Positions 1,963-41,466 are shown, counted from the stretch's first letter. The stretch: DNA of 48,183 nucleotides from Clostridiales bacterium (GCA_016278505.1 JADQBQ010000031.1:1-48183); one strand, 5' to 3'. Numbers and translations are program-made. Notes: generated by a model from the letters alone, not told the origin.

Positions 1963-4900
1963 ATGCCTAAAACTATCGATATTGGTTGTTTTGTAAGTGC
2001 CCAGTCAAATGATTTGGGGCCAGGCAAAGTTGTTGAAATAATAGACTCTAAATCTGTAAGTGTTGAGTATTTTTATTCAGTTGCCAGGCAGGAAACACGA
2101 GTTCTTAATATTTATGACCTTGAGCGGGGGACACTTACACCTAAAACCCGCTGCTATTTCGCAGACCAGGATCAGAATTACTGGCAGTCCGGGATTGTTT
2201 GTAATTGGGAAGAAAAACAAAAAGAGATTATCTATAAGATTAGAAAAACTGATGGCCAAACCATTCGACTGCCGGAATCAGATGTTTTTATAAAGTGCGG
2301 CGGGCCAACTATTAACCCCATAGATTTACTTAGCTCAAAGGCTTACGATACAGGGTTTAACCATACAAGAAGATCGAATTTTCTTATGTCACTGCTAGAG
2401 TTGAGGTCAGCAGCAAGGGGTATGACAGCTGTGTCTTCATCAAAGATTGCTTTACTCCCACACCAGGTTGAGGTGGTACGTAGGGTGGTTGAAGACCCCG
2501 TGCAAAGATACCTGCTTGCTGATGAAGTTGGCCTTGGGAAAACGATTGAGGCAGGTGCTATAATTCGCCAATATTTACTGGACCACTCTAAAGGGTCAGT
2601 TTTAGTATTCGTCCCACCTCTGCTCATTGAGCAATGGCAAAAAGAACTAAGCGAAAGATTTCACATTAATGGATATCATAAGGGCAGGGTACATATTTAT
2701 TCAGTTAATGATGTTAAAAGGATTAGGAAAAAGAATTATGGCCTGATTGTAATGGACGAGGCACACCATGTTGCACAAATGGCCTTTTCCAGGTGGCAAG
2801 ATGAGAGAAGTTGGTTTGAGGCCTTTGCTAAACTTGCCCATAGGGCAGACCGCTTACTTCTATTATCCGCCACCCCTGTTTTAAACAATGAGCACAGCTT
2901 TTTAGCCATGCTTAACCTTTTGGACCCAGACATATATAGGCTCTCAGATATCAATAAGTTTATTCATATTGTCCAAAAACGTCAGGACATAGGACAACTA
3001 CTTCTAAGCTTTAAAGAGGAAAAAGGGGCATTTATATTAAAAAAGAGCCTGGAGAAAATGAGGCAGCTATTTCCAAATGACAAAGATTTAGAAAATCTCT
3101 TAATTGACTTAGAAAAAAATTTATCAAGCGGTGAGCCTAAGAGCGGATATGCTCAAATCATTAGGGCAATTCGAGTGCACATTACTGAAAATTATCGCCT
3201 GCACCAGCGGATAATGATGAATAGAAGGGAAAACGTTGATGCTCTCACTGGCCGGTACCATAGGGGTGGGCAAGATAATCAATTAATTTGCCAATATGAC
3301 GAGGACAGTCACTCTGAATACATTTATGATTTGCTAAACGAGTGGCGTGAGACAGCTGTAGGGCAGCTATATCAGCAGTATGAGTCCTTTAACCAAAAGA
3401 TTGCACAGAAGAAGCTCGGCCAGTTAACTAAAATATTTTTTTTGCTGCTTGAAAGTTCGGTTACCTGGGAAGGACATTTCCAAAATGTCCTAACGTCTCG
3501 CTTAAAGGGCACCTACATAATTGCGTTTGAGAAAGAGATGGAGGAGGACACGTACCACCTTTTACGCGAAGTTCCGCTATTTGAGGGTGAAAAAGAATTA
3601 TTGGAAAGTATGCTTCAGGCGATTAAAGGCCGAGGGTCAGCATGGGGGCGGCTAAAGAATCTTATAACATTTCTGGAAGCCAATAAAAAACAAAGCCTTA
3701 GTTTAGGTGAGGGTTTGCAAAAATGTGTAATTTTTACGAGCTACACCAGCACCTGCCGTGAAATTGTTCGTCAGTTAGCTGGATATTTCGGCAAGAAGGC
3801 TGTTTCAAAATTTCACATGGGCATCTCTGCAGATGCTATTGAAAGAGAAATTTTTCGCTTTCGTAATGACCCTGAGTGCTTCATTCTTGTTTGCGACTGG
3901 AGTGGAGAGGAGGGGCGAAATCTTCAATTTGCCGATATAATAATACATTTTGACCTACCTTGGGCCCCAAACCGAATTGAGCAGAGGATTGGCCGACTTG
4001 ACCGCATAGGCCGGAATAAAGCTTTAAATACATATGTATTCACAGGGCCACAGGGCTCACATTCACTGCACGAGGCCTGGTTTAGTACATTAGATGAGGG
4101 GTTTGGCATTTTTAATAATTCCATCGCCTCGCTTCAATTTTTTACAGATGAGAAAATGCCCCAAATTCGCCGATTGGCTTTTATGAAAGGTGCCGGTGGT
4201 GTTTTAGATACTATTGCCTCTATCCAAGAAGAAATAAAAAGTGAAAAGGTTAAAATTTATGAGCAGTACGCCCTAGATGAAATAAATGTACTTGAGAAGT
4301 TTGATATAGGATACTTTGATACACTGCAAAAGGTTGACCAAAACCATTTTAAGATTCAGCAAGGGGTGGAGCCCTGGCTTTGTGAAGTTCTTGGCCTTGA
4401 AAAGGAGCCGGATGCCCTTCACCCAGACATTGTTAAATACCAGGGTGGCAGCAAAACTATGGTGCCTGCATCGATACTTTCAGCATTAGATCCTTATATA
4501 AGCAAGCCCGGAACATACAGCCGTGAAGTGGCGGAAAGTACACCGGAATGTGATTTGTACCGCACTGGGCAAGGCCTTTTTGACATTATCGAGAATTATA
4601 CAAAACTAGATGACAGGGGAAAAACATTTATCATTTGGCGCCACGATGCTAATTGGGATATGGCTGAGTGGGCAGGGTTTCGCTTTGATTTTATTATTGA
4701 GGCAGACATCCGACTGGCTAAAAAAATACTCAAATCTAATCATAGTACTTTAAATTTAAAGGCATTGCGTAATCAGGCCGAAGCTTATTTCCAGCCGAAG
4801 TATAAAACTATTTACGTTGATATTGAGATGAGTAAGACAGAAGACACTGCCATAATAGATGTCCTAAATAGGCCTTTTAAGGGTATATCTGAAGGCGGTA

Positions 4901-5226
4901 ATGATTTTGACCTTACCGGTGGGCGTCTCCATCTGCTTGAGGAGTTTGTCGACCAGGGGTGTTGGGCCGATTTATGCCACGATGCCCTAAGGGCCTCAAA
5001 GACCTTTTTACAAGATACGTCTTTTATCAATAAATGCAATGAGGCAGGCGATAAGGCGTCCAGAGAATTAGAGTCCCGGGTGGAAAAGCTGCACGTTAGG
5101 GAAAGCAAGGGGGCGGAAATGGAGCAAAAATTAGCCAGGGCACTTGTAGAGGGAATCCGTGCACCTATGATACGGCTTGATTCTGCTGGATTTATAATCC
5201 TATCTGCAAGATATCCCCTTAAGTGA
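1963..5226 (+). CDS. dpdE: SNF2-family helicase, DpdE-like
   Basis: A 1087-residue superfamily 2 translocase. Visible motifs are ADEVGLGKTIEAG (Walker A, about residue 186-198), MDEAHH (about 264-269), LLSATP (about 300), and the C-terminal helicase block with DLPWAPNRIEQRIGRLDRIGR (about 665-685). The first 100 residues look like an SH3/Tudor-like beta region. It begins the operon after a 160-bp gap with AGGAG ahead of the ATG. The following genes match DpdF to DpdK and DpdD, so I call it DpdE, a DNA translocase of the restriction module that acts on DNA lacking deazaguanine marks. Zorya ZorD is also a SNF2 protein of about this size and the neighbours are ZorAB-like, so ZorD is the main alternative. 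Confidence 0.72.
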   Translation: MPKTIDIGCFVSAQSNDLGPGKVVEIIDSKSVSVEYFYSVARQETRVLNIYDLERGTLTPKTRCYFADQDQNYWQSGIVCNWEEKQKEIIYKIRKTDGQTIRLPESDVFIKCGGPTINPIDLLSSKAYDTGFNHTRRSNFLMSLLELRSAARGMTAVSSSKIALLPHQVEVVRRVVEDPVQRYLLADEVGLGKTIEAGAIIRQYLLDHSKGSVLVFVPPLLIEQWQKELSERFHINGYHKGRVHIYSVNDVKRIRKKNYGLIVMDEAHHVAQMAFSRWQDERSWFEAFAKLAHRADRLLLLSATPVLNNEHSFLAMLNLLDPDIYRLSDINKFIHIVQKRQDIGQLLLSFKEEKGAFILKKSLEKMRQLFPNDKDLENLLIDLEKNLSSGEPKSGYAQIIRAIRVHITENYRLHQRIMMNRRENVDALTGRYHRGGQDNQLICQYDEDSHSEYIYDLLNEWRETAVGQLYQQYESFNQKIAQKKLGQLTKIFFLLLESSVTWEGHFQNVLTSRLKGTYIIAFEKEMEEDTYHLLREVPLFEGEKELLESMLQAIKGRGSAWGRLKNLITFLEANKKQSLSLGEGLQKCVIFTSYTSTCREIVRQLAGYFGKKAVSKFHMGISADAIEREIFRFRNDPECFILVCDWSGEEGRNLQFADIIIHFDLPWAPNRIEQRIGRLDRIGRNKALNTYVFTGPQGSHSLHEAWFSTLDEGFGIFNNSIASLQFFTDEKMPQIRRLAFMKGAGGVLDTIASIQEEIKSEKVKIYEQYALDEINVLEKFDIGYFDTLQKVDQNHFKIQQGVEPWLCEVLGLEKEPDALHPDIVKYQGGSKTMVPASILSALDPYISKPGTYSREVAESTPECDLYRTGQGLFDIIENYTKLDDRGKTFIIWRHDANWDMAEWAGFRFDFIIEADIRLAKKILKSNHSTLNLKALRNQAEAYFQPKYKTIYVDIEMSKTEDTAIIDVLNRPFKGISEGGNDFDLTGGRLHLLEEFVDQGCWADLCHDALRASKTFLQDTSFINKCNEAGDKASRELESRVEKLHVRESKGAEMEQKLARALVEGIRAPMIRLDSAGFIILSARYPLK

Positions 5227-5244
5227 GAGGAGGGAAGTATAACG

Positions 5245-7812
5245 TTGTTTGACCAATTTCAGGTAATGAGGGAAATAATAAGCGGTCATCAACCGCTTCC
5301 GGAACAGAATGAATTTAGAGAGAGTTGCTACAGAAGGCTTTATTACGCTCTGTGTGATTTTGAAAAGGTTGGCGCTGGGGACATTGCCTCCCTGGTTCGC
5401 CATGTCCTGCGGGGGGAGATGGAAAAGCAGGGAGGGATAGCCCAAAGCATGCTTGTTCCCGCTACCCCCCCATGGCCAGATGCTGATGAGTGGGCAATGG
5501 CCGGGATCACAATCTTGGATAGCCGGGACAATTTTCTTCTTATACAGGCTGACGAATGGAAACCCCGGTGGCTATCTCACAATGATGCTTATTATCCAGA
5601 AAAACCACTTTTTGCTTTAGATAAGAGAGCAAATTATACACCTGTTCCAGGTGATCCATTTCTTGATGCATTAAATATAAAGACTTATTTAACCCCCGGC
5701 CAGCGCGAGGCAGTGCGCTCGGTCTTAATGTCGCCTCCTGGCTCAACGCTTATTGTTAATCTTCCTACGGGCTCGGGTAAAAGCCTGTGCGCCCATTTAC
5801 CTGGCATTCTTTTTTCCCAAGGGGGCGGATTGACGGTTGTAGTTGTGCCTACCACTGCGCTGTGCATTGACCAAGAGCGCTCGGTTGATCCATTTATACA
5901 GCACCCAGCCGCATACTATGGTGGGACAACTTCTAAAGAAAAGGAGCGCAACGCCGGGATTAGAGAAAGGATCAGGAATGGTAGCCAAAGGATTGTTTTT
6001 ACATCACCGGAAAGTCTTACTCAATCTTTAATAGGGCCAATCTATGCTGCCGCAGAACGCGGATATCTGAAATTGCTAGCAATCGATGAGGCCCACATTG
6101 TTAATCAATGGGGTGATGAGTTTCGCTCCTCGTTTCAGGAGATAGCGGGGATTCGCAGGGACCTTTTACGGGCCTGCACAGATAACCCATTTATAACTCT
6201 TCTTTTATCCGCAACCATAACTGAGGCCTGCCTTGATACGTTAGAAACACTCTTTGGCCACCCGGGCCCAGTAGGTATGGTATCGGCAGTTCAGCTCCGG
6301 CCAGAGCCCTCTTACTGGTTTTCACACTGCTCTGATATGGAAGCCAAGGCTCAAAGGGTACTTGAAGCTTTACACCACCTCCCCCGTCCGCTGATTCTTT
6401 ACACAACAAAGGTAGATGAGGCTGAGGCATGGGCCCAAGTACTTAAGAACATGGGCTATTTGCGCTGCGAAGTTGTTACCGGTAAAACCGGGCCTGGAGA
6501 GCGGCTAAGAATTGTGCAGCAGTGGCGGGAGCAGCAGGTGGACATTATTGTTGCCACATCGGCCTTCGGGCTTGGTGTGGATCAGCCTGATGTTCGTACT
6601 GTATTACACGCCTGCATACCCGAGAGTCTTGACCGCTATTACCAAGAAGTGGGTAGGGGTGGACGTGACGGAAGGGCGAGTCTTTCTCTGGTAATTTACA
6701 TAGATGAGGATCTTGAGGTCGCTCACTCTCTGAATAAAAAGAAAATCATAACCGTTGAGCGTGGCCTGCAGCGCTGGAATAGTATGTTTGATAATAAAGA
6801 GAGCCTGGGTCAGGGCAAGTATCGTGTGCCGGTTAACGCGGTGCCAAGCAATGATCCTGGGGACATTGATATGGATAATAAGCTGAACCTGGCCTGGAAC
6901 GTTCGTACTTTGACACTTATGACCCGGTCTGGGCTTATTGAGCTGGACTCAGAGGACCCACCCCAGTGGGGGCATGACGGCGAGGAGTTGGATGCTGACG
7001 ATCTAGCGCAAATATACCAGGAAAAGTTACAAAATTATTCAAATCACCGAGTGGTGAGTGTTGTTAATAATGATCACCTTAAGCTGGAAACTTGGCAGCG
7101 CTTAGTTGAGCCAGTACGCAAGCTAACAAACCAATTTGCCAAAAAAAGTATGCAGCTTATGGTGGAATTACTTTTAGGGGACCGCTGTGTTTCGGAGGTC
7201 TTTGAAGGAATTTATACCATAGAAAAATGTGATTCATCTGCATGGCGAAGGCCGGTAATAGTGTCCAAAAGCTGTGGCGGGTGCCCAGCTTGCCGCAGTG
7301 GGCAAATTAGCCCCTATGCGGGCTTTGTTCCATCCTCCCTCCCAATTTGGCCGCCATCTAATGAAATTGGCAATGAACTAGAACGGTTGCTCGGGGGCAG
7401 GAAGGTATTAGCAATTTTTTACGAAACTTTCAGCGTAGAGGAGAAAAGGGAATTGCGAAAGTGGAGCACATTGATTAGCTGGCTAGTATCACAGGAAACA
7501 CAAAATTTAATTGCACCCAAAGAATTATTGGAACAATTTCGTAAGGCAGTCAAAAAAGTCCCAGATGCTTATGTGTTCTTTCACCAGGAATTTAAGCCTT
7601 TATTTATACCAAAAGTTCCCTCGCTAGTTATACACATGGAAGGTGTACCTGTACCAGATAATTATTACCGTGCTAAGGTCTTTTCATCACCACGTATATT
7701 ATTGCTACCTGCAAGTGCAGTGGACCCGGCTAAGGGGCACTGCCTCTTAGTGGACACCATTCCATGTAAAAAGTACTCATTAGAAGAATTTTGCATGGAG
7801 GTTGGCCTATGA
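5245..7812 (+). CDS. dpdF: RecQ-like helicase, DpdF-like
   Basis: An 855-residue helicase. The start is TTG 5245, placed well after AGGAGGG. Motifs are NLPTGSGKS (Walker A, about 171-179), IDEAHIVNQWG (about 279-289), LLSATIT and GLGVDQPDVRTV with YYQEVGRGGRDGR (about 435-475), typical of RecQ. Near residues 655-690 a cysteine group C...CGGCPACRSG resembles the RecQ zinc site. In the Dpd system of Salmonella, DpdF is one of several helicases needed for restriction of unmodified DNA but not for modification. It lies 18 bp after dpdE and overlaps dpdG by four bases (ATGA), so it is co-translated. Confidence 0.75.
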   Translation: MFDQFQVMREIISGHQPLPEQNEFRESCYRRLYYALCDFEKVGAGDIASLVRHVLRGEMEKQGGIAQSMLVPATPPWPDADEWAMAGITILDSRDNFLLIQADEWKPRWLSHNDAYYPEKPLFALDKRANYTPVPGDPFLDALNIKTYLTPGQREAVRSVLMSPPGSTLIVNLPTGSGKSLCAHLPGILFSQGGGLTVVVVPTTALCIDQERSVDPFIQHPAAYYGGTTSKEKERNAGIRERIRNGSQRIVFTSPESLTQSLIGPIYAAAERGYLKLLAIDEAHIVNQWGDEFRSSFQEIAGIRRDLLRACTDNPFITLLLSATITEACLDTLETLFGHPGPVGMVSAVQLRPEPSYWFSHCSDMEAKAQRVLEALHHLPRPLILYTTKVDEAEAWAQVLKNMGYLRCEVVTGKTGPGERLRIVQQWREQQVDIIVATSAFGLGVDQPDVRTVLHACIPESLDRYYQEVGRGGRDGRASLSLVIYIDEDLEVAHSLNKKKIITVERGLQRWNSMFDNKESLGQGKYRVPVNAVPSNDPGDIDMDNKLNLAWNVRTLTLMTRSGLIELDSEDPPQWGHDGEELDADDLAQIYQEKLQNYSNHRVVSVVNNDHLKLETWQRLVEPVRKLTNQFAKKSMQLMVELLLGDRCVSEVFEGIYTIEKCDSSAWRRPVIVSKSCGGCPACRSGQISPYAGFVPSSLPIWPPSNEIGNELERLLGGRKVLAIFYETFSVEEKRELRKWSTLISWLVSQETQNLIAPKELLEQFRKAVKKVPDAYVFFHQEFKPLFIPKVPSLVIHMEGVPVPDNYYRAKVFSSPRILLLPASAVDPAKGHCLLVDTIPCKKYSLEEFCMEVGL

Positions 7813-8678
7813 GTGTACTAAAACAGGTTGCCGCCACCCCAAGCCGTGTAAGGGGTATCTACCGATATTTGCTGTCGCTTGAGGGGCAAAGTGAGGCTCG
7901 GGACATTTTAGAGCGCACCATGTCACCGCACACTCTCATAAAAGAAAGTAAAAAAAGAACTATGATTCATGACACTGTAGGAGAGTGTATAAAAATGGGC
8001 CTCTTAATTGAAGAAAGCGATACCGTTGCCATTAACCCCAATTTGCCAGATCCGGCCCGGAATCCGCAAACAGGTGACTTAATTCTGCCTATTGCTTTAT
8101 CAAATTTGTTTTTTTCGGAAAAAAATGAGGAAAACCATAATCTTGGGAGGGTAATATCCTGGTATCTTAGCCGGGATATCTATGATGCCCCGGGCAATTG
8201 GAAGGAAGTTGAGGAGGCATTTCGGGAGCAGGCTATTACCGATAAATTGGGAGTTACAAGTGACGCTAGGTACGGGCAGTTTGAGGACTGGATTTGCTAT
8301 CTGGGGTTTGCCTGGTGCCATTCCCGTAAAAGGGAAAAGATGCTAATGCCTGATCCCACTGCCCACATAAGGGACAGATTAGCCCAGCTTTTTGGGGATA
8401 AGGAGTCACTTCCTATTGCGGATGCTGTGAGGAGACTGGCCGAAGCCTGCCCTGTGCTAGAGGGCGGCACGATGCGCAAAGAAATCGAAAAGAATTATGC
8501 AGAGCGTGATGAGAGATCGTTATCTAGCTCTACGTCACATGCCTGGTTTAGGCTTCAAGATGAGGGTATCGTAAAGCTTGTAGAGAAGTCTGATGCAGAA
8601 ATGCTTATTTTTATAGACGGTGGCACTAAAAGGCGCTACTCTGAGATAAAGTGGCTGGGAGGTGACCTTAAGAAATGA
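7809..8678 (+). CDS. dpdG: DpdG-like protein
   Basis: A protein of 289 residues. I prefer ATG 7809 (MSVLKQVAATPSR) because it overlaps the dpdF stop as ATGA and has GGAGG seven bases upstream; ATG 7791 in the same frame is the longer alternative. It has no catalytic motif that I recognise. The helical content and the segment VRGIYRYLLSLEG resemble winged-helix or adaptor domains. The assignment rests on position between RecQ-like and ATPase genes in Dpd order. It ends overlapping dpdH by four bases. Confidence 0.65.
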   Translation: MSVLKQVAATPSRVRGIYRYLLSLEGQSEARDILERTMSPHTLIKESKKRTMIHDTVGECIKMGLLIEESDTVAINPNLPDPARNPQTGDLILPIALSNLFFSEKNEENHNLGRVISWYLSRDIYDAPGNWKEVEEAFREQAITDKLGVTSDARYGQFEDWICYLGFAWCHSRKREKMLMPDPTAHIRDRLAQLFGDKESLPIADAVRRLAEACPVLEGGTMRKEIEKNYAERDERSLSSSTSHAWFRLQDEGIVKLVEKSDAEMLIFIDGGTKRRYSEIKWLGGDLKK

Positions 8679-11600
8679 CAGATGAAGGCACCAACTTTAA
8701 GAATTGTATCTGCTGGAATAGTGATATGGTTTCCCGGGTTATGGATACTGATGCCCTTCAGGTGCAAGACCATATCTTTCTTGCCACCCACCACCCCATT
8801 AAAATGTATCAGCAGATCTTAGATGGGTCAAAGATAGAATATGATGAGGAAACGTTTTTAAAAGATTTTCTAAGCCCGAAAGATTATATTCTTACCGCAA
8901 TCTTGGGGACTGCGGGCACAGGCAAATCCCACCTTGTTCGGTGGCTTAAGGCGAATATTCCCGAAACAAAAAATAGGCGGGTGCTTCTTATACCAAAGGT
9001 CGGCACTAATTTAAAGGGAATAGTAAATATCATCTTGGAGGGTATGGAAGGGAAAAAATTTGACGAATACCGTGAGCGCCTTGAAAAGTCAACGGAGTAC
9101 CTTTCAGAAGAGCAGGCCAGGGAAATGCTGCTTGACTCTCTAGCTATGAATGTAGGCCCAAACGGCCCTCACGGCATGGATAACCTTAGTGAGGTGGAAG
9201 AAAACCTTGCCCAAAGTTTGCCCAACTTACTTCATGACCCGCACTTTCGCGGTGACTTGCTAAAGGATGGGGGAATCATTCACAGGCTCACAACTCACAT
9301 AATTGGGGATTTAAACCGTGTGGAGCGCATTGAGGAAAAGAGCCAATTTAAGGTGAGTGACTTACCATTGAGTATAACTGATTTTATGCAGGCAAGCAAA
9401 ATGGCCCAAAATTGCTATCAGGATCTAATGACCTTTCCTGAGCTTCAGCAGCAGGCAGTGGATTGGATGAATAAGAACTTAAATGAGGCAGTGGCAAAGG
9501 TATTAAACTTAAATGGTGAAAACCTCTTAAACCTGATGAATGATGTCAGGGAGTCTTTGGCAGAGCAAAACGTAGAGCTAATTTTGTTAATTGAGGACTT
9601 CGCTAAGCTGCAGGGTATTGACAACCAGTTATTGGAGGCATTATTGGTAAGACCAAATCAGCCTGGCAGAAAGCGCCTATGCGCCCTGCGCACAGCCTTT
9701 GCCGCTACTGAGGGATACTTTGATAATTTGGTTCAAACTGTGCGCGATAGAATTAAATTTAGGGTTAATCTTAATGTGGGGCAGGCAGGGAAGAAAGGTT
9801 TCGTAACCTTAAATGATGTGGAGAGCCTGGTGGCGCGCTACATTAATGCAGCCAGGCAGAATGATTCAAGCTTAATAGAATGGCATAGACAAAATCTTAC
9901 CCAGGGCAACGGGGAAAGTATACCCGCCCCGTCAGCCTGCCATCAGAAGGGGTGCCCCCACCTAGATGCCTGCCACTCCGCCTTTGGCCACAGAGAAGGT
10001 ATGGGGCTATACCCATTTACCCGAGAGGCAATTACAAATATGTTTGACCGTGCGTGCTCAAATGACTTTAACCCACGCAAAATCATTGATAAAATAATTA
10101 AACACACACTGGAGAATTATAGTGACCACTTGGCTAATGGAGAATTTCCCCCGCGGGCGCTGTCACAACACTTTGGCGGACTGAAAATGCGTGCCGCGCT
10201 GCAAACAAAACTTCGTGACATGGACCCGGTGAATTACCAGCGAAGGCAAGTTTTATTAGAATTATGGTCCGATCATTCAGAGCCAGAGGATTTGGACCCG
10301 GTTATACACGAAGCTTTTAGCCTGCCCCCCCTTGGCCTAGAGGGCATAGACGGGCCTCCGGATGATGAAGACGAGGAAGAAGGGGGCGGGGGGGGGCCAG
10401 AAGAGCTGTTTCCCAAAGAACTTGAGAATAAACTCAAGCTCATTGACGAGTGGTTCAATGGAGGAGAATTGCCCCAAGGGCTTGCGAGTGAATTACGTGA
10501 GATTGTTTTTCATGCTGTATCAAGCAGAATTGACTGGGACTCGGAACTTCTTCTTGCCAATCAATTTAGGGGGTCAACAAGGGCATTTAAGCAAACAAGT
10601 GTTAATTTCATTAGGCAGGCAACAAAGGCTGCAAAAACTGAAACAAAGTTATTAATTCCAATAGATGACAAATTTAGCGATGCAGCAGTTGCCCTACAGG
10701 GAATGCTTGCCTACAGTCATTTTGGAAACTGGAACTTTAGGGATGGCGGGTACCACCTAAGAGCTTACTCCAGGATGATAGAGGAGTGCGCTCAGCACGT
10801 TTTGCAGCAGGTAAAGCAGCCCATCGAGTACAGTGATTGGAGCCCGGTTCCCGCAGCAGTAGAGTTACTGGCCATCGGGGCTAGAATGGCAGGACACCCA
10901 AGTGAAAGTGATCCTTCTGAAGATATGTTGACCGCCTCACTCTTTGCAGATATCAGTGAAGTCAATTTGTCCGGGCGCTCTCAGGCCTGGAGGGAACTTT
11001 TAAAGCTATTTGTTAAGCACCGCAAGGAATTAACAGACATAGTTTTATCCAGGGCATCCTGCACAAAGGGTGCCTCAGCACAAGTTCAAATAATTGATGC
11101 TGTACAGATAATTAAACCTATTAGGGATTTATTATCCAGCGACTGGCAGCCAAAAGCTGTCTTACCAAAAGAGTTTAAACAAAAGAATATTCTCAAGCTT
11201 CGAGATAAAACTAACGGCCAGCTAAGTGACGCCATTTCCGGGGAAAAGGATCGCTGTCAAAAGTGGTATAAAAATGTTCAAGATAATATTGGTGATATCG
11301 ATTCCAGGCAAGAGGTGATAGATGCTTTACGCCAGGCTGTGGAAAGGGCCCGTGCCGAGGGTGCCCTTGCTGGCGCCCAGCCTAATGAAATAGAGGAAGC
11401 TATAACTGGGCTTGATACACCAGGCCTTAAAAAATGCTACAGTGCTGCCAATGTTGAAGGGCTAAGTAATAATGGGCAATTGCTTGGTGCGATTGGGCAG
11501 ACGGATGCAAAAATTATGCAGAATGTGGATAATTTTATTGATACAGCCACCAATTTCCTGGAGCAGTCAGCCAGACGCGCTCAAAATGAGGTTGATGAGC

Positions 11601-11719
11601 TTAGGGGAAGGGGCGGAAAAGACCTAGAGGTTATTTTAGAAGACATTGGCCAGGGCTTGGATGAACTAGAAAAATTAAATAAACAGCTGCAAGGAGGGGG
11701 GGAAAGTCATGATCATTGA
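8675..11719 (+). CDS. dpdH: AAA-type ATPase, DpdH-like
   Basis: A 1014-residue ATPase. Walker A is GTAGTGKSH (about 77-85) and the Walker B-like segment is LILLIEDFAKL (about 303-313). A zinc-type cluster CHQKGCPHLDAC lies at about 421-432. A linker rich in Asp/Glu and Gly (about 563-580) separates the ATPase half from a helical C-terminal half. The linker is encoded by a tract with G5-C-G9 (10382-10396), an unusual slippage-prone run. The start ATG overlaps the dpdG stop and the end overlaps the next gene by 11 bases. In Dpd clusters DpdH is the large ATPase of the restriction set; it probably couples ATP hydrolysis to target recognition. Confidence 0.72.
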   Translation: MTDEGTNFKNCICWNSDMVSRVMDTDALQVQDHIFLATHHPIKMYQQILDGSKIEYDEETFLKDFLSPKDYILTAILGTAGTGKSHLVRWLKANIPETKNRRVLLIPKVGTNLKGIVNIILEGMEGKKFDEYRERLEKSTEYLSEEQAREMLLDSLAMNVGPNGPHGMDNLSEVEENLAQSLPNLLHDPHFRGDLLKDGGIIHRLTTHIIGDLNRVERIEEKSQFKVSDLPLSITDFMQASKMAQNCYQDLMTFPELQQQAVDWMNKNLNEAVAKVLNLNGENLLNLMNDVRESLAEQNVELILLIEDFAKLQGIDNQLLEALLVRPNQPGRKRLCALRTAFAATEGYFDNLVQTVRDRIKFRVNLNVGQAGKKGFVTLNDVESLVARYINAARQNDSSLIEWHRQNLTQGNGESIPAPSACHQKGCPHLDACHSAFGHREGMGLYPFTREAITNMFDRACSNDFNPRKIIDKIIKHTLENYSDHLANGEFPPRALSQHFGGLKMRAALQTKLRDMDPVNYQRRQVLLELWSDHSEPEDLDPVIHEAFSLPPLGLEGIDGPPDDEDEEEGGGGGPEELFPKELENKLKLIDEWFNGGELPQGLASELREIVFHAVSSRIDWDSELLLANQFRGSTRAFKQTSVNFIRQATKAAKTETKLLIPIDDKFSDAAVALQGMLAYSHFGNWNFRDGGYHLRAYSRMIEECAQHVLQQVKQPIEYSDWSPVPAAVELLAIGARMAGHPSESDPSEDMLTASLFADISEVNLSGRSQAWRELLKLFVKHRKELTDIVLSRASCTKGASAQVQIIDAVQIIKPIRDLLSSDWQPKAVLPKEFKQKNILKLRDKTNGQLSDAISGEKDRCQKWYKNVQDNIGDIDSRQEVIDALRQAVERARAEGALAGAQPNEIEEAITGLDTPGLKKCYSAANVEGLSNNGQLLGAIGQTDAKIMQNVDNFIDTATNFLEQSARRAQNEVDELRGRGGKDLEVILEDIGQGLDELEKLNKQLQGGGESHDH

Positions 11720-12410
11720 ACGGTCTAAAAGTTTAATTGAATTACTAGATCAAAAAAAATCACTAAAAGGCAATTTAAATAAGATTAAAGGGTTTAGAAC
11801 TCGCCGTGACGAGATAATTAAGATAAACAAACGACTTAAGCCCCTTGCAACAACTAGCACTGCATTTCGCACAAAGAACATTGGCTCAGCTGATGTTGAA
11901 GGCCGGTCAGTGGAATTAGAGGAAACCATCCTTAATGCTGCTAAGACCCTAAAAGAAAATCCCGAGGACTTTACGCGTGCCCATAACTTTAAAAAACTAC
12001 AAGAAGGTGCAGCAACCTTATCAAATGATCTTGAGGTTAAGCTAAATAATATGTGGTTTAATTATACTAGAAGTTTACTTCCTGATGAAAATACTGAGCT
12101 GTTAGATGTGCTTGACCGGCTGCCGTCGTTTTCCAGCTCGGTCAGGCAAATCCGTCAAATAAATTCAGAAATCGCCACGTTTAGGGATGGGTGGCCATTA
12201 ACAGAAGAAGATATAGAAAAGTTTAACGGGCTAGCCGATAAAATGAAAACTGTTTGGGATGGCATTGAGGCTGTCCCCCCAGACATACTTGCTTTCCTGC
12301 AAAATGCGGTTTCGAGCTCAGGGGCGTCAATTGATTTATTAACTGATGAAGTTAGGAAATGGCTTGCAGAATATAAGATTAATGCATCTTTTAAAGTACG
12401 GCTATCCTAG
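11709..12410 (+). CDS. dpdI: DpdI-like helical protein
   Basis: A 233-residue, mostly helical protein rich in Lys, Glu and Leu with no recognised domain. The N-terminal 40 residues and the region after residue 130 look coiled-coil. It starts inside the end of dpdH (11-base overlap, with AAGGAGGGGGG upstream), which ties its expression to the ATPase. The name is given by position only: in Dpd clusters a small protein sits between the DpdH ATPase and the DpdJ helicase. It could be an adaptor. Confidence 0.5.
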   Translation: MIIERSKSLIELLDQKKSLKGNLNKIKGFRTRRDEIIKINKRLKPLATTSTAFRTKNIGSADVEGRSVELEETILNAAKTLKENPEDFTRAHNFKKLQEGAATLSNDLEVKLNNMWFNYTRSLLPDENTELLDVLDRLPSFSSSVRQIRQINSEIATFRDGWPLTEEDIEKFNGLADKMKTVWDGIEAVPPDILAFLQNAVSSSGASIDLLTDEVRKWLAEYKINASFKVRLS

Positions 12411-12432
12411 CTAAGTTGATAGGGTGTGTAAT

Positions 12433-15400
12433 ATGGATAACTATCTTGAAATATTAGTGCGTGACTTTCTTGACATTCTGGAAGGCCAAGAGGCAAAGCT
12501 TTTAACCTGGGGCTTTGTTGATGGCGGGTTCTCGGAAGATGAAATCTATGATCAGGCAGAAACCTTTTTAGATGAAATAAGTTCAGATGAGGACCCGGAT
12601 GACCTTGTGGAGGAAATGATTGAGCGCCGGCTGCTATTCGAAATAAATATAGGCGGAAGGAAAGTTTGGAGAACCCGCATGGCAGAGTCGGTAAGGCTTT
12701 TAGCACGCCTTCGGCAAATCTTTCAAAACCAGAAATGGCAGATAGCGCCCACATTAGTTGCTGACTTTAGGTTTGCGCTACGCCCACGCACCTACCCAAG
12801 GCGACATATATCACCGGACAATGTGTTACTAAGTCTTGAGGACCTAAATTTGCCCTCTTTTAAGAAAGAAATGCTCTTGTCAATGCTTAAGTCTGCCGGC
12901 AGGGAAGGCTTCCTTCTTTCAGACTTTCAGATGCGCTCTACATGGAGGATGCTGGCAGACATTGGGGCAAAATATAGCCGTGGAATGATTGTTTGTGCCG
13001 GAACTGGTACAGGAAAAACTCTAGCCTTTTATCTGCCTGCCCTAACCCACGTATCCAATGAGGTGGAAAGGAACTCCTACTGGACGAAGGCCGTTGCCAT
13101 ATACCCGAGGAATGAGCTACTTAAGGACCAGTTTTCAGAAACTTATGCGGAGGCCAGAAGAATAGACGGGAAGCTCAGGCCAAAAGCAGGGCGCAAATTG
13201 ATTATTGGCGCCTTTTTCGGGGCAGCGCCAAGATACTGCTCCCCTGAAGAATTTAAATATAAGGGGTGGGCCCCCCATAGGGATGGGTTTATTTGCCCCT
13301 ATCTTTTGTGCCCCAAGTGTGGGGGAACTTTAGCCTGGCAAAAAAAAGACATTCAAAGCAAAACTGAAAGACTACACTGCACCAGGCAGGGCTGTGGTGC
13401 CATTGTCAGAGAGGACGAAGTTATCCTTACCCGCCAGCGAATGGCCGCCTCGCCTCCTGATATTCTGTTTGCAACCACAGAAACATTAAACCGGAACCTT
13501 AGTGACTCCAAATATCAGCATGTTTTTGGCGTGGGCAGCAAAAGGCGCCCACAGATTGTGCTGCTGGATGAAGTGCACACTTACGCCGGTATTCACGGCG
13601 CCCAGGTTGCACTACTTTTACGCCGCTGGCGTCACGCTGTAGGTACCAAAATGCACTTTACAGGGCTTTCTGCAACGCTGCAGGATGCAAGGGAATTTTT
13701 TAGCCAGCTTGTCGGGCTAGGCCCCTCACATATTGAGGAAATAGGTGCCGGTGACGACCTTGTTCAAGAAGGCATGGAATATTTATTAGCCCTTCGCGGC
13801 GATCCTGTTTCAGCAACTAGCCTTTTGTCTACAAGCATTCAAGCGGCAATGCTTTTGAGACGAATTCTGGAGCCGGGAGATGAAATGCCCGCGCAGGGGC
13901 TTTATGGTAGGCGTGTATTCATATTTACGGATGACTTAGATGTCACTAACAGGCTGTTTCATAATATTCAAGATGCAGAGGGGCTGGACAGTAGGGGCAA
14001 CCAGCTGCCCAGTAAAAAGCCACTTGCATCATTGCGCTCGAGGGGGGCAGCGGAGAATGCCCGGCGGATGACAGCGGGCCAGTCCTGGCACCTATGTGAG
14101 GAAATAGGGCACCCTGAGGGCCTGGGAGTGCCCCTTAAAATTGGGCGGACAAGCTCTCAAGATATTGGCGTAGATAAAAAAAGTGATGTTATTGTGGCCA
14201 CAGCAACACTTGAAGTTGGCTTTAATGACCCTGAGGTAGGGGCTGTTCTGCAGCATAAGGCGCCGCACAGCATGGCCTCATTCTTACAGCGCAAAGGGCG
14301 TGCAGGGCGCAATAAAAAAATGCGCCCCTGGACAATTGTAGTACTATCTGACTATGGCAGGGACCGGCTGGCCTACCAGGGCTATGATATTTTATTTAAT
14401 CCAGTTATAGAAAGGAGGGCCCTGCCTGTATCCAATAGGTATGTTCTTAAAATGCAGGCAGTCTTTGCCCTTATAGACTGGATTGCAGCCCAGCTTCCCG
14501 AAGACTGTCCAAAAGGTAGCATTTGGATTGACCTGTCTGGCCCGCCGCTTGTGCTATATAAACAAGAGTCAGTAAAAAATGATATAAGAAAGCGCCAGGC
14601 CGCCGAGGCTAAGATTATTAGAAGACTTCTCGAGGACCGGAATTATGCTCAAAACATAGAGGCTTATTTGGAAAAGGCCCTTAAGGTAGTTACCGAAGAG
14701 GCAAAGGTGCTTTTATGGGAGCCACCCCGCCCAATTATGACGGCAGTTCTGCCAACAATTCTGCGTAGGCTGGAAACTAGTTGGCTAACATTTAATTCTA
14801 GGGGTGGAGAGGGTGACCTGGAATACCACCAAAGATTTATCCCTCTGCCAGAGTTTATACCACCAAACTTATTTAGCGACTTAAATCTGCCTGAGGTGAA
14901 TATAATTACACCGCCTGAATTTAAGGGTAAAGAGCACGGCCAGCACCCAATGCCTATTTTACAGGCATTAAATACCTTTGCTCCGGGTAGGGTAACACGC
15001 AGATTTGGTATTGGGCACGCCAGCATAAGTCACTGGGTCTCTCCTGAAAAATTGGACGTTGCCAGGCAAGATCTTGCCATAGAAAAGTTTTGTAAGGATT
15101 ATAAGGAAATGGGAACATTTCAGCTATGGGAGGACGAGAAGCCCACAGATATTAGATGCATTCGCCCATGGGCACTGCACGTTACCAAGCCACCCCACAA
15201 TGTGTTGATAACATCTAATGCCCAACTGCAGTGGCACAGTCAAATAATGCCGGGTGGAGATGGGGTAGAGGCAGACCTGCCCATAGGGTCAAAGTGGAGT
15301 GATCTTATTAATGAAATAAAATTTTACAGCCACAACAACCGTCATAATGTTACTGTTAGGCGCTTTGCCACCGGATCAAAAATGAATTTGCGCTTTAAGG

Positions 15401-17007
15401 GCGGCGGCGAGCTGGAGAGTAACCTGCGCTATATCCAGGGTGACTCAGGAAAGCCTGTTAGCATAGGCTTTCTACAAGAAGTTGATGGAATTGCCATTCG
15501 CTTTCGGGTGCCAAAGGAATTTAATATTAGCCCAAGCGATGCCAATCAGCAAAAGGTGCGCTCTTTCCGCACAGCGTACTTACGCCACCGCATACTAAAT
15601 GATCCACGGTTAGACGGTCTGGCCAATCTATTTCAGCGAGACTGGCTATTCCAAATATTTTGTTCGGCAATTGTATCTAATGCCCTTATTAAAAACATTT
15701 CTCTTTGTGATTCTCATGCGGATCTTGCATCGGGTGACTTGTCGGGGGAAATGGCCAAAGTACTTAATACAATTTTTCAGGTAATTTCCAATGACCAGCA
15801 GGCCCAAGAGGGGCAAGAGGAACAGGGGGAAGAGTCTGAAACGCATCGCCAAAAGGTTCATGATACGTTGGCTGATTTTTGCCGCAGCAGCAAAGTGTTA
15901 GAGGTATTAAATGATTTGGCCCGGATACTATGGGAGGACCCAGACGAGGGGTGGAAAAACTGGGCGACTCTCCGCTTAAAGTCAACACTTGGGACAGCAC
16001 TACTACAGGCAGCATCACAGGTCTCTTCTCAGTTTGATTCCGGTGACCTGCTACTGGATATCGAATCTGGCCCCAGGTCACCTTATATGCCTACTTTTCC
16101 CGACGGGATAGAGGAATTATGGATAACAGAGACTACCTCAGGGGGCGGGGGAATGGTAGAAGAAATCTTTCGCCGCTATAATGAAGATCCCCGCAGGTTT
16201 TTCCGCCTTGCTGAAAGTGCGCTGGGTCCCTCAGACTTTGAGCTAGTTGACTCTGAGCTTTCTAACTTGTTAGATCTTGCTGCCGCTGATGATAGTATTA
16301 AGTCAGCCTTTGCAGCTGTAAGGTCAGCGGACGGCTTTAAAGAGCTGCAGCAGGCTACAGGGAATTTGAAAAACATACTAAACTCAGGTGGAATTCTACT
16401 TACCCATCCTGTTCTTAGTGCAATAAATACACGCATTTTAAGGGCTGGAAGTTCACCGCAAAGTGACACTCTAATTCGTACTATGATACAAATGTGGAAA
16501 CAAGAGGAGGAGCGCCTAGGCGTAGAAATAGACGCCAGGGTCTTTGCCTATGTTGGTAGTACCAGCCATCACCTTGACCACGCCCTTGCACACATAGGAC
16601 AGGCACAGCTTGACGACTTAAACTGGAGATTCCAGGTTATCTATGGCCTGCTGTGGCCCCGGGGTAGCTTGGTGCGCTCACAGGGGCTGTCAACTTATAA
16701 CCCCTTTGCCCCATTGCCTGATCCAGACAGAGAGATTCTTAAGGATATATTAATTATAGATGATAATGTAATCATGCTTGAAGATCAAAACTGGCGGGAC
16801 AAGGTGGTAGGTGCTCTTGCACAATTTGGCACGGCCCGCATTTATGCCCCTGTTTCAAAAAGAGAGGATCTTAAAAAGAATATCCAAGACTTAATGGTTG
16901 AGCCAATGGAGATTGGATTTTTAAATCTATATCCCAGAATTGAAAGCCTGCAGCGGGATAAAGATGGTTATTATGCAACACTAGACATCAGGGAGGCAAT
17001 CCAATGA
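12433..17007 (+). CDS. dpdJ: Giant DEAD/DEAH-type helicase, DpdJ-like
   Basis: About 1524 residues from ATG 12433, with AGGG upstream; GTG 12424 is the in-frame alternative. Motifs are CAGTGTGKTLAFYLPA (about 190-205), LLDEVHTYAG (about 380-389), GLSATLQD (about 413-420) and the C-terminal helicase block ATLEVGFNDPEVG with FLQRKGRAGRNK (about 593-635). A zinc-ribbon insert CPYLLCPKCGG...CTRQGCG lies at about 293-335, between Walker A and the DEVH box. The last 800 residues are unassigned. The order helicase, PLD protein, DpdD is the Dpd order. It probably translocates on target DNA for the DpdK nuclease. It overlaps dpdK by four bases. Confidence 0.72.
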   Translation: MDNYLEILVRDFLDILEGQEAKLLTWGFVDGGFSEDEIYDQAETFLDEISSDEDPDDLVEEMIERRLLFEINIGGRKVWRTRMAESVRLLARLRQIFQNQKWQIAPTLVADFRFALRPRTYPRRHISPDNVLLSLEDLNLPSFKKEMLLSMLKSAGREGFLLSDFQMRSTWRMLADIGAKYSRGMIVCAGTGTGKTLAFYLPALTHVSNEVERNSYWTKAVAIYPRNELLKDQFSETYAEARRIDGKLRPKAGRKLIIGAFFGAAPRYCSPEEFKYKGWAPHRDGFICPYLLCPKCGGTLAWQKKDIQSKTERLHCTRQGCGAIVREDEVILTRQRMAASPPDILFATTETLNRNLSDSKYQHVFGVGSKRRPQIVLLDEVHTYAGIHGAQVALLLRRWRHAVGTKMHFTGLSATLQDAREFFSQLVGLGPSHIEEIGAGDDLVQEGMEYLLALRGDPVSATSLLSTSIQAAMLLRRILEPGDEMPAQGLYGRRVFIFTDDLDVTNRLFHNIQDAEGLDSRGNQLPSKKPLASLRSRGAAENARRMTAGQSWHLCEEIGHPEGLGVPLKIGRTSSQDIGVDKKSDVIVATATLEVGFNDPEVGAVLQHKAPHSMASFLQRKGRAGRNKKMRPWTIVVLSDYGRDRLAYQGYDILFNPVIERRALPVSNRYVLKMQAVFALIDWIAAQLPEDCPKGSIWIDLSGPPLVLYKQESVKNDIRKRQAAEAKIIRRLLEDRNYAQNIEAYLEKALKVVTEEAKVLLWEPPRPIMTAVLPTILRRLETSWLTFNSRGGEGDLEYHQRFIPLPEFIPPNLFSDLNLPEVNIITPPEFKGKEHGQHPMPILQALNTFAPGRVTRRFGIGHASISHWVSPEKLDVARQDLAIEKFCKDYKEMGTFQLWEDEKPTDIRCIRPWALHVTKPPHNVLITSNAQLQWHSQIMPGGDGVEADLPIGSKWSDLINEIKFYSHNNRHNVTVRRFATGSKMNLRFKGGGELESNLRYIQGDSGKPVSIGFLQEVDGIAIRFRVPKEFNISPSDANQQKVRSFRTAYLRHRILNDPRLDGLANLFQRDWLFQIFCSAIVSNALIKNISLCDSHADLASGDLSGEMAKVLNTIFQVISNDQQAQEGQEEQGEESETHRQKVHDTLADFCRSSKVLEVLNDLARILWEDPDEGWKNWATLRLKSTLGTALLQAASQVSSQFDSGDLLLDIESGPRSPYMPTFPDGIEELWITETTSGGGGMVEEIFRRYNEDPRRFFRLAESALGPSDFELVDSELSNLLDLAAADDSIKSAFAAVRSADGFKELQQATGNLKNILNSGGILLTHPVLSAINTRILRAGSSPQSDTLIRTMIQMWKQEEERLGVEIDARVFAYVGSTSHHLDHALAHIGQAQLDDLNWRFQVIYGLLWPRGSLVRSQGLSTYNPFAPLPDPDREILKDILIIDDNVIMLEDQNWRDKVVGALAQFGTARIYAPVSKREDLKKNIQDLMVEPMEIGFLNLYPRIESLQRDKDGYYATLDIREAIQ

Positions 17008-17531
17008 TAAAGGGCCGCTATATTCATACACGTGCAAGCAGCAGGCAGGTCCCGGACCTATTGCAGGCAATCTTTGCATCTGAGCTAGTTTCAAAAAGCA
17101 GGTGTATTTGGGTAATTTCTCCTTGGATCACTGACATTCCGGTTATTGATAATAGGGCTAATCAATTCCTATCCATGGAGCCCTTGTGGGCTGGACGCCA
17201 TGTTCGCCTCTCTGAGGTTATCCATAAATTGCTTAGTCTTGGAACAACAGTACAAATAGCCACCCGCCCTATCGAGCACAATAAAAATTTTATTGACATT
17301 ATAAAGATAGCCCGCAAGGAGGGTCTCCCTGCCCAAATACACATCGCGTCTGAGCTACATGAAAAAGGAATTTTGGGTGATTATTATTACCTTAGCGGGT
17401 CAATGAATTTTACCTACAATGGGATATCCCTTAATGAGGAGTCTGTTCACTATGACACCAACAAAAATATAGTTGCAGAAAACAGGGTGGTTTTAGCTAA
17501 CCGGTGGGGGTCTGAAATTAATGTTGGATAA
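17004..17531 (+). CDS. dpdK: Phospholipase D-like nuclease, DpdK-like
   Basis: A 175-residue protein with one PLD active-site motif: His-Glu-Lys (HEKGILGDYYYLSGSMNFTYNG), matching HxK(x4)D(x6)GS/N at about residues 121-142. Single-motif PLD nucleases normally work as dimers. The N-terminal half (CIWVISPWITDIPVID) is the usual PLD beta-strand core. It is the best candidate for the DNA-cutting subunit of the operon. It starts on the dpdJ stop (ATGA) and its end overlaps dpdD by 11 bases. Confidence 0.75.
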   Translation: MIKGRYIHTRASSRQVPDLLQAIFASELVSKSRCIWVISPWITDIPVIDNRANQFLSMEPLWAGRHVRLSEVIHKLLSLGTTVQIATRPIEHNKNFIDIIKIARKEGLPAQIHIASELHEKGILGDYYYLSGSMNFTYNGISLNEESVHYDTNKNIVAENRVVLANRWGSEINVG

Positions 17532-19788
17532 CGCTAGTTTAGAAGTTAATGAATATCTTAATGTCTTTTTTGGCGAAAAAAATGATTTTAAGCTCGAACA
17601 GGTCTTAACTGAAGGCTCTGAGCGTGCTGGTAAAATTCGCCCCTGGGTTGAATATCTTTTAGGAGATAGCCCTGGCCCCACTGTACTGCCGCGCTGGGTG
17701 AAAAATAACGGGGTAGAGTGGTACGCCCTTGCATTTAATGAGCTGCAGTATAAAAAATTAGGTGAAGAGCTGGTATCCTTTGTTGGGCCATCGTATTCAA
17801 CATTTAGGGGGCGGCAGGCAGAACTAAATCCAGAAGATCCCATTGATGCGGCCGCCGACAAGTTAACAGGCGGGTATGTTTATAAATTTTTTGGCGATCC
17901 AGCCCGAATTTGGAGTGCATTGGAGCTGATGAGGCATGTGTGGACAAATCGCCCTGCAATAGTACGTGAAAGGCCCCGCTCTTTTGGAAGGGTGCTGCGT
18001 GATTTCTATATGGCAATTCAGGCTGGGAATCGCACCTCGGCAGAGGAGCAACTTAGTTACCTACATAATCATTATTATCTGGATGCCTTAAATGCATCAT
18101 TCCTTAAAGTCCAAATGCTAGCTGAGCTAGGGCTTTGGGGAGAGCTATTGGGCCTGCCCTCACTGCCAGACCTTATTCACTCCCGGCGCCCGCTAGAAGT
18201 TACACGGGCGATTATAAAGGCAATTTATTATAGGGAGCTCGAAGGCTTTGAGGAAAAGGGAGACCATATTGGTGCCGTTGAGCATTTTAAAGAGGTTGTT
18301 ATGCCCCTCTATAGCAATGTTTTTAGCTCACGCTCCGGCCTAAGTGACTCTGAGGCCATCAAATGCTTTATGATGCTCGCTGTCAACTCCAGCCCACCGA
18401 GACCTGATTTGCGCGATAAACTTTTATTGTCGGGTAACTTATCAGACGGAGAAAGGGATTATTTGCAGCAAATTGCGATGCTACTGCCTGAGCAAGCCCC
18501 GCAGCCAGGCGGCAGCCCAATCGACTTAGCCTTCAATGCCACTGCAGAGGGAGATTATGATAAGGCATTTGATTATGCCACTGTAGCCCCGCCATCCAGA
18601 ACCCGGGCAAAGATTCTTATAGAGTGTGCCTATGAGCTCCAAACTCTAGCCTCTAAAAAGGAGGCCGTAGATGCTGTTTTAGGTCTGCCCACAGACGAGA
18701 AAGAGGCTTTACTTAACTCACGGCAGCTCAGAATGCTGTGGCAATATTTAAATGAGGAAAGCGGAGATCAGGTATCGCAGACAGCCGTGGAAAATACTCC
18801 GAAGGACTGGATAACTTGGCTTTCCTACCTTGAGCAGCCTGAATTCTGTGACCGTGCCCTTGCTATAGCCCGCACCGGGGCGGTGGAGTGGAAGGTGGAT
18901 GACCTACTCGAAAGCCCTGGGGCAATTGGCAAATTGGAAGAGTTCCTTCAGGCGCCTCCCCATGCAGCAGCAGAGGACGTCCTATATAACGCCTTACCAC
19001 ACCTGCTTGCATTTTTCCAAAGGGACGAGAAGTGGCCACGCAGACAATTTTTAAATGTGTATGCAATCATTCTAGATTTGTTGGTCATGAGCACTGAGGG
19101 AGGCGATGATGACTTAATTATTTTCAACGACCTGCTTCAGGCCCTTCTTACCCTGGGTGTCGGCCGAGATAAATATAAAGATTCAATAGGCTATGCTGTG
19201 GAGCTGTGGAATAAGTATGCCTCACCTGCAAAATTAGACTGGGCTCTAGACTTAGCTGATTTACTAATCATTTATCCATGTCCATCTGAAAAAATTCGCC
19301 AAAACTTTCTCTTTGTTGTTTCAGGTCAAATTGGAAAGTTTGTTAGGAGGATTAGCGCTGGCCAGCTAAATTTTATACAGCAGCTGCATGGTGACATTGG
19401 CCAGGCGGAGGCCTTTAATGAGCTTATTGACTCATACGGCCTAGCCCCAAAAGAGATTACGAGGGATGCGCAAGATGTGTTTGTGAAATTAAGCAGCAAG
19501 ACAGTAGCAATTTATACCCTCACGGAAAGAGTGGCAAAGAGGGTTAAGAATGCGCTCGAGGCCCGGTGCAATGATATAAATGTACACATCAGTAATGATA
19601 AGGCCGGAACAGACCGCCTGCGCCAGCTTGCCAGAAATGTAGATATTTTTGTGATGGCAACGGCCAGCGCCAAACATGCTGCGACGGAATTCATTGAGGC
19701 AAACCGGCCTAAAGAGCTGCCGATACTTAGGCCCCAGGGAAAGGGCAGCGCTAGCATGATGGAGGCTATTTATAATTTTTTACAATAA
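17521..19788 (+). CDS. dpdD: DpdD-like protein with DUF2325-like C-terminus
   Basis: A 755-residue protein ending the operon. Most of it is helical and repeat-like, with no motif that I can name. The last about 95 residues (VAIYTLTERVAKRVKNALE ... NVDIFVMATASAKHAATEFI) form an alternating alpha/beta unit with a late Ala-Lys-His segment, similar to the DUF2325 Rossmann-like fold. DpdD is needed for restriction in characterised Dpd clusters. The start at ATG 17521 lies inside dpdK; a TTG one codon later is also possible. No further gene overlaps it, and a terminator follows. Confidence 0.65.
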   Translation: MLDNASLEVNEYLNVFFGEKNDFKLEQVLTEGSERAGKIRPWVEYLLGDSPGPTVLPRWVKNNGVEWYALAFNELQYKKLGEELVSFVGPSYSTFRGRQAELNPEDPIDAAADKLTGGYVYKFFGDPARIWSALELMRHVWTNRPAIVRERPRSFGRVLRDFYMAIQAGNRTSAEEQLSYLHNHYYLDALNASFLKVQMLAELGLWGELLGLPSLPDLIHSRRPLEVTRAIIKAIYYRELEGFEEKGDHIGAVEHFKEVVMPLYSNVFSSRSGLSDSEAIKCFMMLAVNSSPPRPDLRDKLLLSGNLSDGERDYLQQIAMLLPEQAPQPGGSPIDLAFNATAEGDYDKAFDYATVAPPSRTRAKILIECAYELQTLASKKEAVDAVLGLPTDEKEALLNSRQLRMLWQYLNEESGDQVSQTAVENTPKDWITWLSYLEQPEFCDRALAIARTGAVEWKVDDLLESPGAIGKLEEFLQAPPHAAAEDVLYNALPHLLAFFQRDEKWPRRQFLNVYAIILDLLVMSTEGGDDDLIIFNDLLQALLTLGVGRDKYKDSIGYAVELWNKYASPAKLDWALDLADLLIIYPCPSEKIRQNFLFVVSGQIGKFVRRISAGQLNFIQQLHGDIGQAEAFNELIDSYGLAPKEITRDAQDVFVKLSSKTVAIYTLTERVAKRVKNALEARCNDINVHISNDKAGTDRLRQLARNVDIFVMATASAKHAATEFIEANRPKELPILRPQGKGSASMMEAIYNFLQ

Positions 19789-24227: not shown

Positions 24228-24561
24228 TTGTTCCCTTTTTTCTTGCTAACCAAAGTAAAGGCCTGCAAGCTGGTGCAGACAATAAGACATTAAACTAATA
24301 AGCTTATTTCTATGTGCCCAAGCATGTATTTTACTATGTTGGTAAAAAAGGAAACAATATCATGGACAAAGAAAATATGGTAGTAGTTAGAAAAGGATGT
24401 AGCGCTGAACTCTTGGCAAAAGCCGATAATAAATTATTACTCCATGATTGATCTAATAAGAGTATTAAGATCGTTATTGATTGACCATATGCTCAGCGTG
24501 CAGTCCCTTTATATACCTCACCGGGGATAAGAAAAAACAAATTTTCAGAATGGGGGTCAAT
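24228..24561 (+). other. Intergenic region before the ATPase cassette
   Basis: A 334-bp gap. A 29-codon frame (ATG 24363 to TGA 24452, preceded by AAAGGAA) would encode MDKENMVVVRKGCSAELLAK... but has no known relative and may be chance. The rest is AT-rich and probably carries the promoter of the ATPase operon. GGGGGT at 24551 is the ribosome site for ATG 24562. Confidence 0.4.
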
Positions 24562-26891: not shown

Positions 26892-26903
26892 GGGGGAATA
26901 TGT

Positions 26904-28040: not shown

Positions 28041-28057
28041 AGTGTGGCTATTATGCA

Positions 28058-28087
28058 ATATGGATATTATGGTTAAAATATCCATAT
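28058..28087 (+). promoter_or_regulatory. Perfect 10-bp inverted repeat before the HNH gene
   Basis: Arms ATATGGATAT (28058-28067) and ATATCCATAT (28078-28087) pair perfectly around a 10-nt loop, in the only sizeable gap of the cassette. No T-run follows. It could be an operator or an RNA hairpin that limits expression of the nuclease. Confidence 0.5.
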
Positions 28088-28115
28088 AAATTTTATGTGG
28101 TACGGTGGTTTTATT

Positions 28116-31702: not shown

Positions 31703-31744
31703 CGGCGCCGGTGGTGGGATGAAAGAAAAAGGAGTGGATGAGAG

Positions 31745-41416: not shown

Positions 41417-41466
41417 ATAAGGATCAAGAAATATATAAAATGACTATGATGACAGGGGATGAAAAC

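Follow-up and report, generated by a model that had tools for sequence, protein, structure and literature searches.

How can a bacterium keep a set of genes that restricts unmarked DNA when no gene for placing the mark lies beside it? This question is raised by a 48,183-base stretch from the draft genome of a Clostridiales bacterium (GCA_016278505.1, JADQBQ010000031.1:1-48183; hereafter the window), in which eight same-strand open reading frames (ORFs) at positions 1963-19788 form dpdE-F-G-H-I-J-K-D, the canonical order of the Dpd restriction genes (the E-D operon). A preliminary description, made from the sequence alone, had proposed that the matching mark is made elsewhere or that the operon has been re-purposed, as restriction without the mark should be lethal. 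For this genome the first alternative is supported and the second is not, with a DpdC-DpdA fusion gene, queC, queD, queE and a transporter gene found on another contig, C8. The window operon is therefore most likely (with a probability of roughly 0.8) the restriction half of a Dpd system without DpdB, with the modification half located on C8 in the same genome, a reading based on gene content, protein families, active-site motifs and co-localization in relatives. Because modification genes are present on C8, the apparent paradox of restriction without a mark is resolved.

The restriction operon

The window comprises the whole of contig C33, which ends at both window edges. From dpdE to dpdD, the gaps between successive ORFs are +18, -22, -4, -11, +13, -4 and -11 bases, with overlaps at five of the seven junctions. 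All eight genes lie on the plus strand, and seven of the eight proteins exceed the curated NCBIfam cut-offs, with PADLOC assigning the same names to those seven. The first gene, dpdE (1963..5226), encodes an SNF2-type helicase of 1087 amino acids (aa) that scores 927 bits against NF041062 (cut-off 500) and 715 bits against the PADLOC DpdE model. It is followed by dpdF (5245..7812; RecQ-like helicase, 855 aa; NF041063, 924 bits, cut-off 550), dpdG (7791..8678; 295 aa; NF041064, 150 bits, cut-off 80) and dpdH (8675..11719), the product of which is a P-loop ATPase of 1014 aa (NF041065, 878 bits, cut-off 450) with a Walker A motif, GTAGTGKS, at residue 78. After dpdI (11709..12410), the operon continues with dpdJ (12424..17007; giant YprA-type helicase, 1527 aa; NF041067, 1886 bits, cut-off 800), dpdK (17004..17531; phospholipase D (PLD)-like nuclease, 175 aa; NF041068, 194 bits, cut-off 100; HxK motif at residue 119) and dpdD (17521..19788; 755 aa; NF041061, 541 bits, cut-off 300). 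Intact Walker A and DEAH-type boxes occur in DpdE, DpdF and DpdJ, as do Walker A in DpdH and HxK in DpdK. The AlphaFold model of DpdD (pLDDT 87) gave only weak Foldseek matches, to helical-repeat proteins, and the protein is predicted to be a scaffold made up of an alpha-solenoid and a small alpha/beta domain at the C-terminus.

DpdI is the divergent member of the set. This 233-aa protein, predicted to be all-helical, matches NF041066 with 52 bits (E 8e-14), below the cut-off of 150, yet the match spans positions 6-239 of the 239 in the model, and profile comparison of the window-type alignment with canonical proteobacterial DpdI gave 100% probability over 233 columns. No PADLOC match was obtained for it, and its structure model (pLDDT 91), also all-helical, found no match in a fold search. 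The eight-gene Dpd set is nevertheless confirmed as real, far beyond chance, and agrees in order and protein type with the preliminary description; DpdF, DpdH, DpdJ and DpdK, whose failure to match their families would have spoken against that description, all score above their cut-offs. The operon probably cuts DNA that lacks a special modified guanine.

The stated lack of modification genes was likewise borne out. Whole-genome model searches gave no DpdA or DpdB match on the window contig, and a Pfam scan of the larger window ORFs showed no que, transglycosylase (TGT) or DpdC-type domain, nor any other DNA-modification gene among the ORFs scanned. A gene for a WYL-domain regulator (21638-22885) lies 1.8 kb downstream of dpdD, and a WYL gene also borders the dpd locus of Deinococcus taeanensis (L067).

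Modification genes on a second contig

A genome-wide search, which the preliminary description had proposed, recovered dpdA, a dpdC-like domain, queC, queD and queE; dpdB was not found. The DpdA model has a single match over its cut-off in the genome (496-498 bits, cut-off 200), located on C8 within a fusion protein of 675 aa, DpdCA, in which residues 1-280 are DpdC-like and residues 282-671 correspond to DpdA. The N-terminal domain matches DUF6884 with 33.7 bits (Pfam cut-off 30) and the PADLOC DpdC model weakly (27 bits), and the TGT part aligns over its full length with a solved DNA-guanine transglycosylase (7ui4, E 1e-92) and keeps the active-site motifs GDCGAF, FDSA and CxCxxC...HN. C8 also encodes the sole QueC over cut-off in the genome (221 bits), QueD and QueE, both over cut-off, and a YhhQ-type queuosine-precursor (preQ0) transporter (TIGR00697, 192 bits). 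With DpdA, the three Que proteins and the transporter all encoded on C8, the apparatus for making and inserting preQ0 is present in the genome. Three further C8 proteins belong to the same module, namely TGT2, a transglycosylase of 302 aa that is encoded in divergent orientation and may be active since it keeps the usual motifs (DSGA, FDSS and CxCPxC...HN), a 247-aa protein encoded near the fusion gene, and H', a 1210-aa ATPase related to DpdH at its N-terminus only.

From these components, we infer the chemistry, the replacement of DpdB and the sharing of the mark as follows. QueD, QueE and QueC would make preQ0, which the YhhQ-type protein may also import; the TGT domain of DpdCA would replace guanine in DNA with preQ0, which the DpdC-like domain of the fusion would turn into the amide (dADG). 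TGT2, the 247-aa protein and the H' ATPase may together replace the missing DpdB. Unmarked DNA would then be engaged by the helicases DpdE, DpdF and DpdJ and the ATPase DpdH, with DpdG, DpdI and DpdD as putative scaffolds, and be brought to the PLD nuclease DpdK for cutting. The Dpd cluster of Salmonella is cited in a passage of PMC5567051 as restricting an unmodified plasmid more than 1,000-fold.

C8 carries other genes besides this module. A LeoA/LeoBC-type pair of dynamin-like GTPases (G000:C8:20651-24251) lies directly 3' of the DpdCA gene, and a third small transglycosylase, TGT3, which has no C-terminal zinc motif, is coupled to a Hel308-like helicase (G000:C8:8269-20465; L005, L015) with HerA-like and Mrr-like genes close by. 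Plasmids of Nostoc NIES-3756 and Picosynechococcus encode homologues of TGT3, its helicase and HerA (L062; L064).

Relatives carrying modification and restriction genes together

Four Paenibacillaceae genomes (G136, G137, G139 and G142) carry, in one locus, genes for a transporter, DpdCA, a 265-aa protein, TGT2, a 247-aa protein and H' upstream of dpdE-F-G-H-I-J-K-D, with que genes nearby in most of the four. None of them has a DpdB over cut-off genome-wide, although a match of 40 bits lies on a different contig in one of the four. The Paenibacillus plasmid pART37 contains the same module from transporter to H', with a rearranged restriction part, and a more divergent version of the locus is found on a plasmid of Deinococcus taeanensis. 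In a genome from the same order as the window's (G029), a single 33-kb contig holds queD, queC, H', a gene for a 259-aa protein, TGT2, dpdD-K-J, a gene for a 227-aa protein, dpdH-G-F-E, dpdA and a dpdC-like ORF. The C8 DpdA has its nearest relative in the product of this dpdA, which lies directly upstream of dpdE; the two proteins are sisters in the DpdA tree (support 99/98), in which the fusion clade stands apart from the clade of DpdB-linked DpdA proteins (the latter supported at 100/100). In the DpdH tree, the window protein groups with Bacillota (SH-like approximate likelihood ratio test 91). The Paenibacillaceae and G029 loci thus show that the parts lying on two contigs here occur together in relatives. 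A cyanobacterial protein encoded beside DpdCA ('f7') was considered as a DpdA and rejected, being a degenerate TGT at most despite a profile probability of 95%. On the Nostoc C057 plasmid p057_I, a second dpdJ lies in broken pieces beside the E-D operon (L063:1883-5723).

A second restriction arm

Around the fusion gene, C8 also encodes a Cas4-like PD-(D/E)xK protein, a UvrD-type helicase, a DpdK-like PLD protein (K'), a DpdJ-like helicase of 1903 aa (J'; 497 bits for DpdJ against 48 for the best DruE match) and an 836-aa protein resembling tetratricopeptide-repeat proteins (D') with a weak match to the C-terminus of DpdD. This set makes up a second restriction arm, so one mark made from C8 probably protects against both cutters. 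Such sharing is supported, though not proven, by three cyanobacterial loci (G126, G147 and G141) that combine a single DpdCA with both an E-D operon and a J'-K'-D' arm resembling the one on C8, together with a DndB/DGQHR-type protein. Compact trios of UvrD, PD-(D/E)xK and DpdA genes occur in G002:C27, G094:C28 and G102:C64 (L057, L059 and L058, respectively; order as in the window's genome), where the DpdA ORFs are N-terminally extended (564-588 aa).

Dpd genes without the mark

Among 50 genomes with a window-like dpdH, DpdA exceeds its cut-off in 25 and DpdB in 13. Both are lacking in many cyanobacteria, most of which retain E-F-G-H-I only. This five-gene set occurs in at least 13 genomes, almost all of them from cyanobacteria, in which DpdA, DpdB and DpdJ were not found; the corresponding blocks have no J, K or D (L072-L076, L078-L081, L085, L086, L088 and L098), some being cut by the contig start. 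In four further genomes, dpdJ is truncated or split (G119, G125, G131 and G145). An intact dpdJ goes with DpdA by genome count (Fisher p 6e-6; 0.0045 in cyanobacteria), but the association is not significant across 5-6 phylogenetically independent pairs and is a trend only, the independent events being too few. A tidy split, with no dpdJ in genomes without DpdA, is broken by four cyanobacterial drafts (G124, G129, G134 and G143; L082, L087, L092 and L101) in which dpdJ is intact and no DpdA was detected. These drafts are left unexplained by the present model and argue against treating the lethality of a full operon without its mark as a general rule.

No methyltransferase motif recurs beside the loci that hold E-I only. 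In another genome of the same order (G027), which has no DpdA, an IS21 element and a distance of some kilobases separate an E-F-G-H block from a complete phosphorothioation operon, dndBCDEA; the region after IS21 encodes, in turn, a NERD-UvrD helicase, a protein of 948 aa and DpdE/F/G/H-like proteins (G027:C64; L210:2740-8814, L056:7116-18940 and L208:1731-5472). These distributions suggest that the deazaguanine mark is not needed for E-I to function and that Dpd parts may be separable. A broader scheme, which we advance only tentatively and which is somewhat doubtful as a whole, would divide the operon into two separable machines: a mark-agnostic sensing and translocation device, E-F-G-H-I, that survives by itself in many cyanobacteria and could pair with other marks as well (phosphorothioation in G027), and a cutting device, J-K-D, that needs the deazaguanine mark; in lineages without DpdB, a second transglycosylase, a protein of about 247 aa and an ATPase would replace DpdB, and one mark would guard against two cutting arms.

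Alternative explanations

Several observations weigh against joining C8 and the window into one system. DpdB is part of the canonical modification set, and an overlooked copy was rejected because three models (NF041060, PDLC02812 and DGQHR TIGR03187) gave no match genome-wide; NF041060 does detect DpdB above its threshold in 13 other genomes. The 265-aa protein encoded next to DpdCA in Bacillota was not found in the window's genome by a search that had no positive control. The window dpdJ is 53% identical to that of Nostoc C057 and 33% to that of G029, and DpdE and DpdF are also nearer to cyanobacterial homologues, unlike the C8 DpdA and H', which are closest to G029; the halves thus differ in history and perhaps did not evolve together. 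C8 could also be a contaminant of the draft, although completeness and contamination are given as 100 and 1.93, respectively, and C8 shares stretches of 94-97% identity with the window (window 30957-32079 and 41332-41845 versus C8 48498-49516 and 61767-62280), one of which includes an ORF with a SWIM zinc finger. Finally, with a restriction arm of its own, C8 could be self-contained. The divergent relationships and this equipment of UvrD, PD-(D/E)xK, J', K' and the DpdD-like protein would fit two independent systems, the window operon depending on a modification gene that the draft does not contain. Such independence appears improbable, as a draft given as 100% complete contains a single DpdA over cut-off, one DpdCA serves both arms in G126, G141 and G147, and the C8-type module accompanies the E-D operon in G029 and Bacillota. 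The two halves were probably acquired separately and would cooperate through a shared mark.

The division into two contigs could also be an artefact if C8 and C33 are neighbours in one long Dpd locus that was separated during assembly, a view that overlaps with the favoured reading of a restriction half and a modification half and would change the layout while leaving the mechanism the same. C8 begins with queC/queE/queD and C33 begins 2 kb before dpdE, and since Bacillota have que genes directly before dpdE, joining the left ends of both contigs would be syntenic. This arrangement is nonetheless unlikely, because no terminal k-mer common to the contig ends was found at the lengths tried, from 15 to 127, and even if joined there, DpdCA would remain at least 26 kb from dpdE. 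Re-purposing of the operon towards a different mark, or none, draws on the mostly cyanobacterial E-F-G-H-I genomes and on the block near dndBCDEA in G027, all without a detected DpdA. It is hardly credible here, as the E-I-only cases lack J, K and D whereas the window operon is complete, and the scanned window ORFs showed no further DNA-modification gene; an orphan re-purposed operon is rejected for this genome on account of the DpdC-DpdA fusion and the que genes.

Other genes in the window

Farther downstream, a row of genes at 24481-28931, which may be another defence cassette, encodes an AAA_15 ATPase (488 aa), two proteins that match no Pfam family and an HNH protein. At 35674-39029, a 547-aa protein without a Pfam match is coupled to a second SNF2 helicase (570 aa).

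Comparison with known systems and implications

The canonical Dpd island, as in Salmonella Montevideo or the Enterobacter plasmid pPOL9A, shares all eight restriction genes and their order, E-F-G-H-I-J-K-D, with the window operon; in pPOL9A, dpdD is followed in convergent orientation by dpdB, dpdA and another gene in the place of dpdC. Here, by contrast, dpdA, dpdB and dpdC are absent from the contig, DpdB was not found in the genome, and the DpdA on C8 carries a fused DpdC-like domain. A close likeness is to pART37, the four Paenibacillaceae genomes and G029, which share DpdCA (a separate dpdA and dpdC-like ORF in G029), TGT2, the protein of about 247 aa, H', que genes and/or the transporter, and the E-D genes; in the Paenibacillaceae and G029 these form one locus, whereas here they occupy two contigs, with the UvrD/PD-(D/E)xK/J'/K'/D' arm in addition on C8. 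BRIGADE systems (Bell et al. 2025, PMC12458937) are hybrid, Dpd-like systems that have two YprA-type helicases and a deazaguanine cluster, are reported only from halophilic archaea and have an ARMADA-like YprA helicase as their defining feature; in a comparison based on libraries without a BRIGADE model, the second helicase here (J') is DpdJ-like. The BREX-Related Capture system (PMC12839542) recruits a TGT without DpdB, another NTPase being proposed to replace it, and has PglZ, DUF6079, DUF4007 and others, whereas PglZ, DUF6079 and DUF4007 were not seen among the C8 proteins scanned. With respect to DISARM, the window DpdE scores 201 bits for DrmD, under the cut-off of 610.

The operon itself adds a new member to the Dpd restriction family, and the whole is a variant, split over two contigs and without DpdB. 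It is not filed as a canonical Dpd system because DpdB, which the GATOR-GC survey (PMC11888242) requires together with dpdA, was not found. These findings suggest that a Dpd system can be spread over separate loci, and scans that demand both genes together, as that survey does, will miss such divided systems. Moreover, the two-transglycosylase module without DpdB makes the role of DpdB testable, and the cyanobacterial loci hint at which Dpd genes may cut and which do not.

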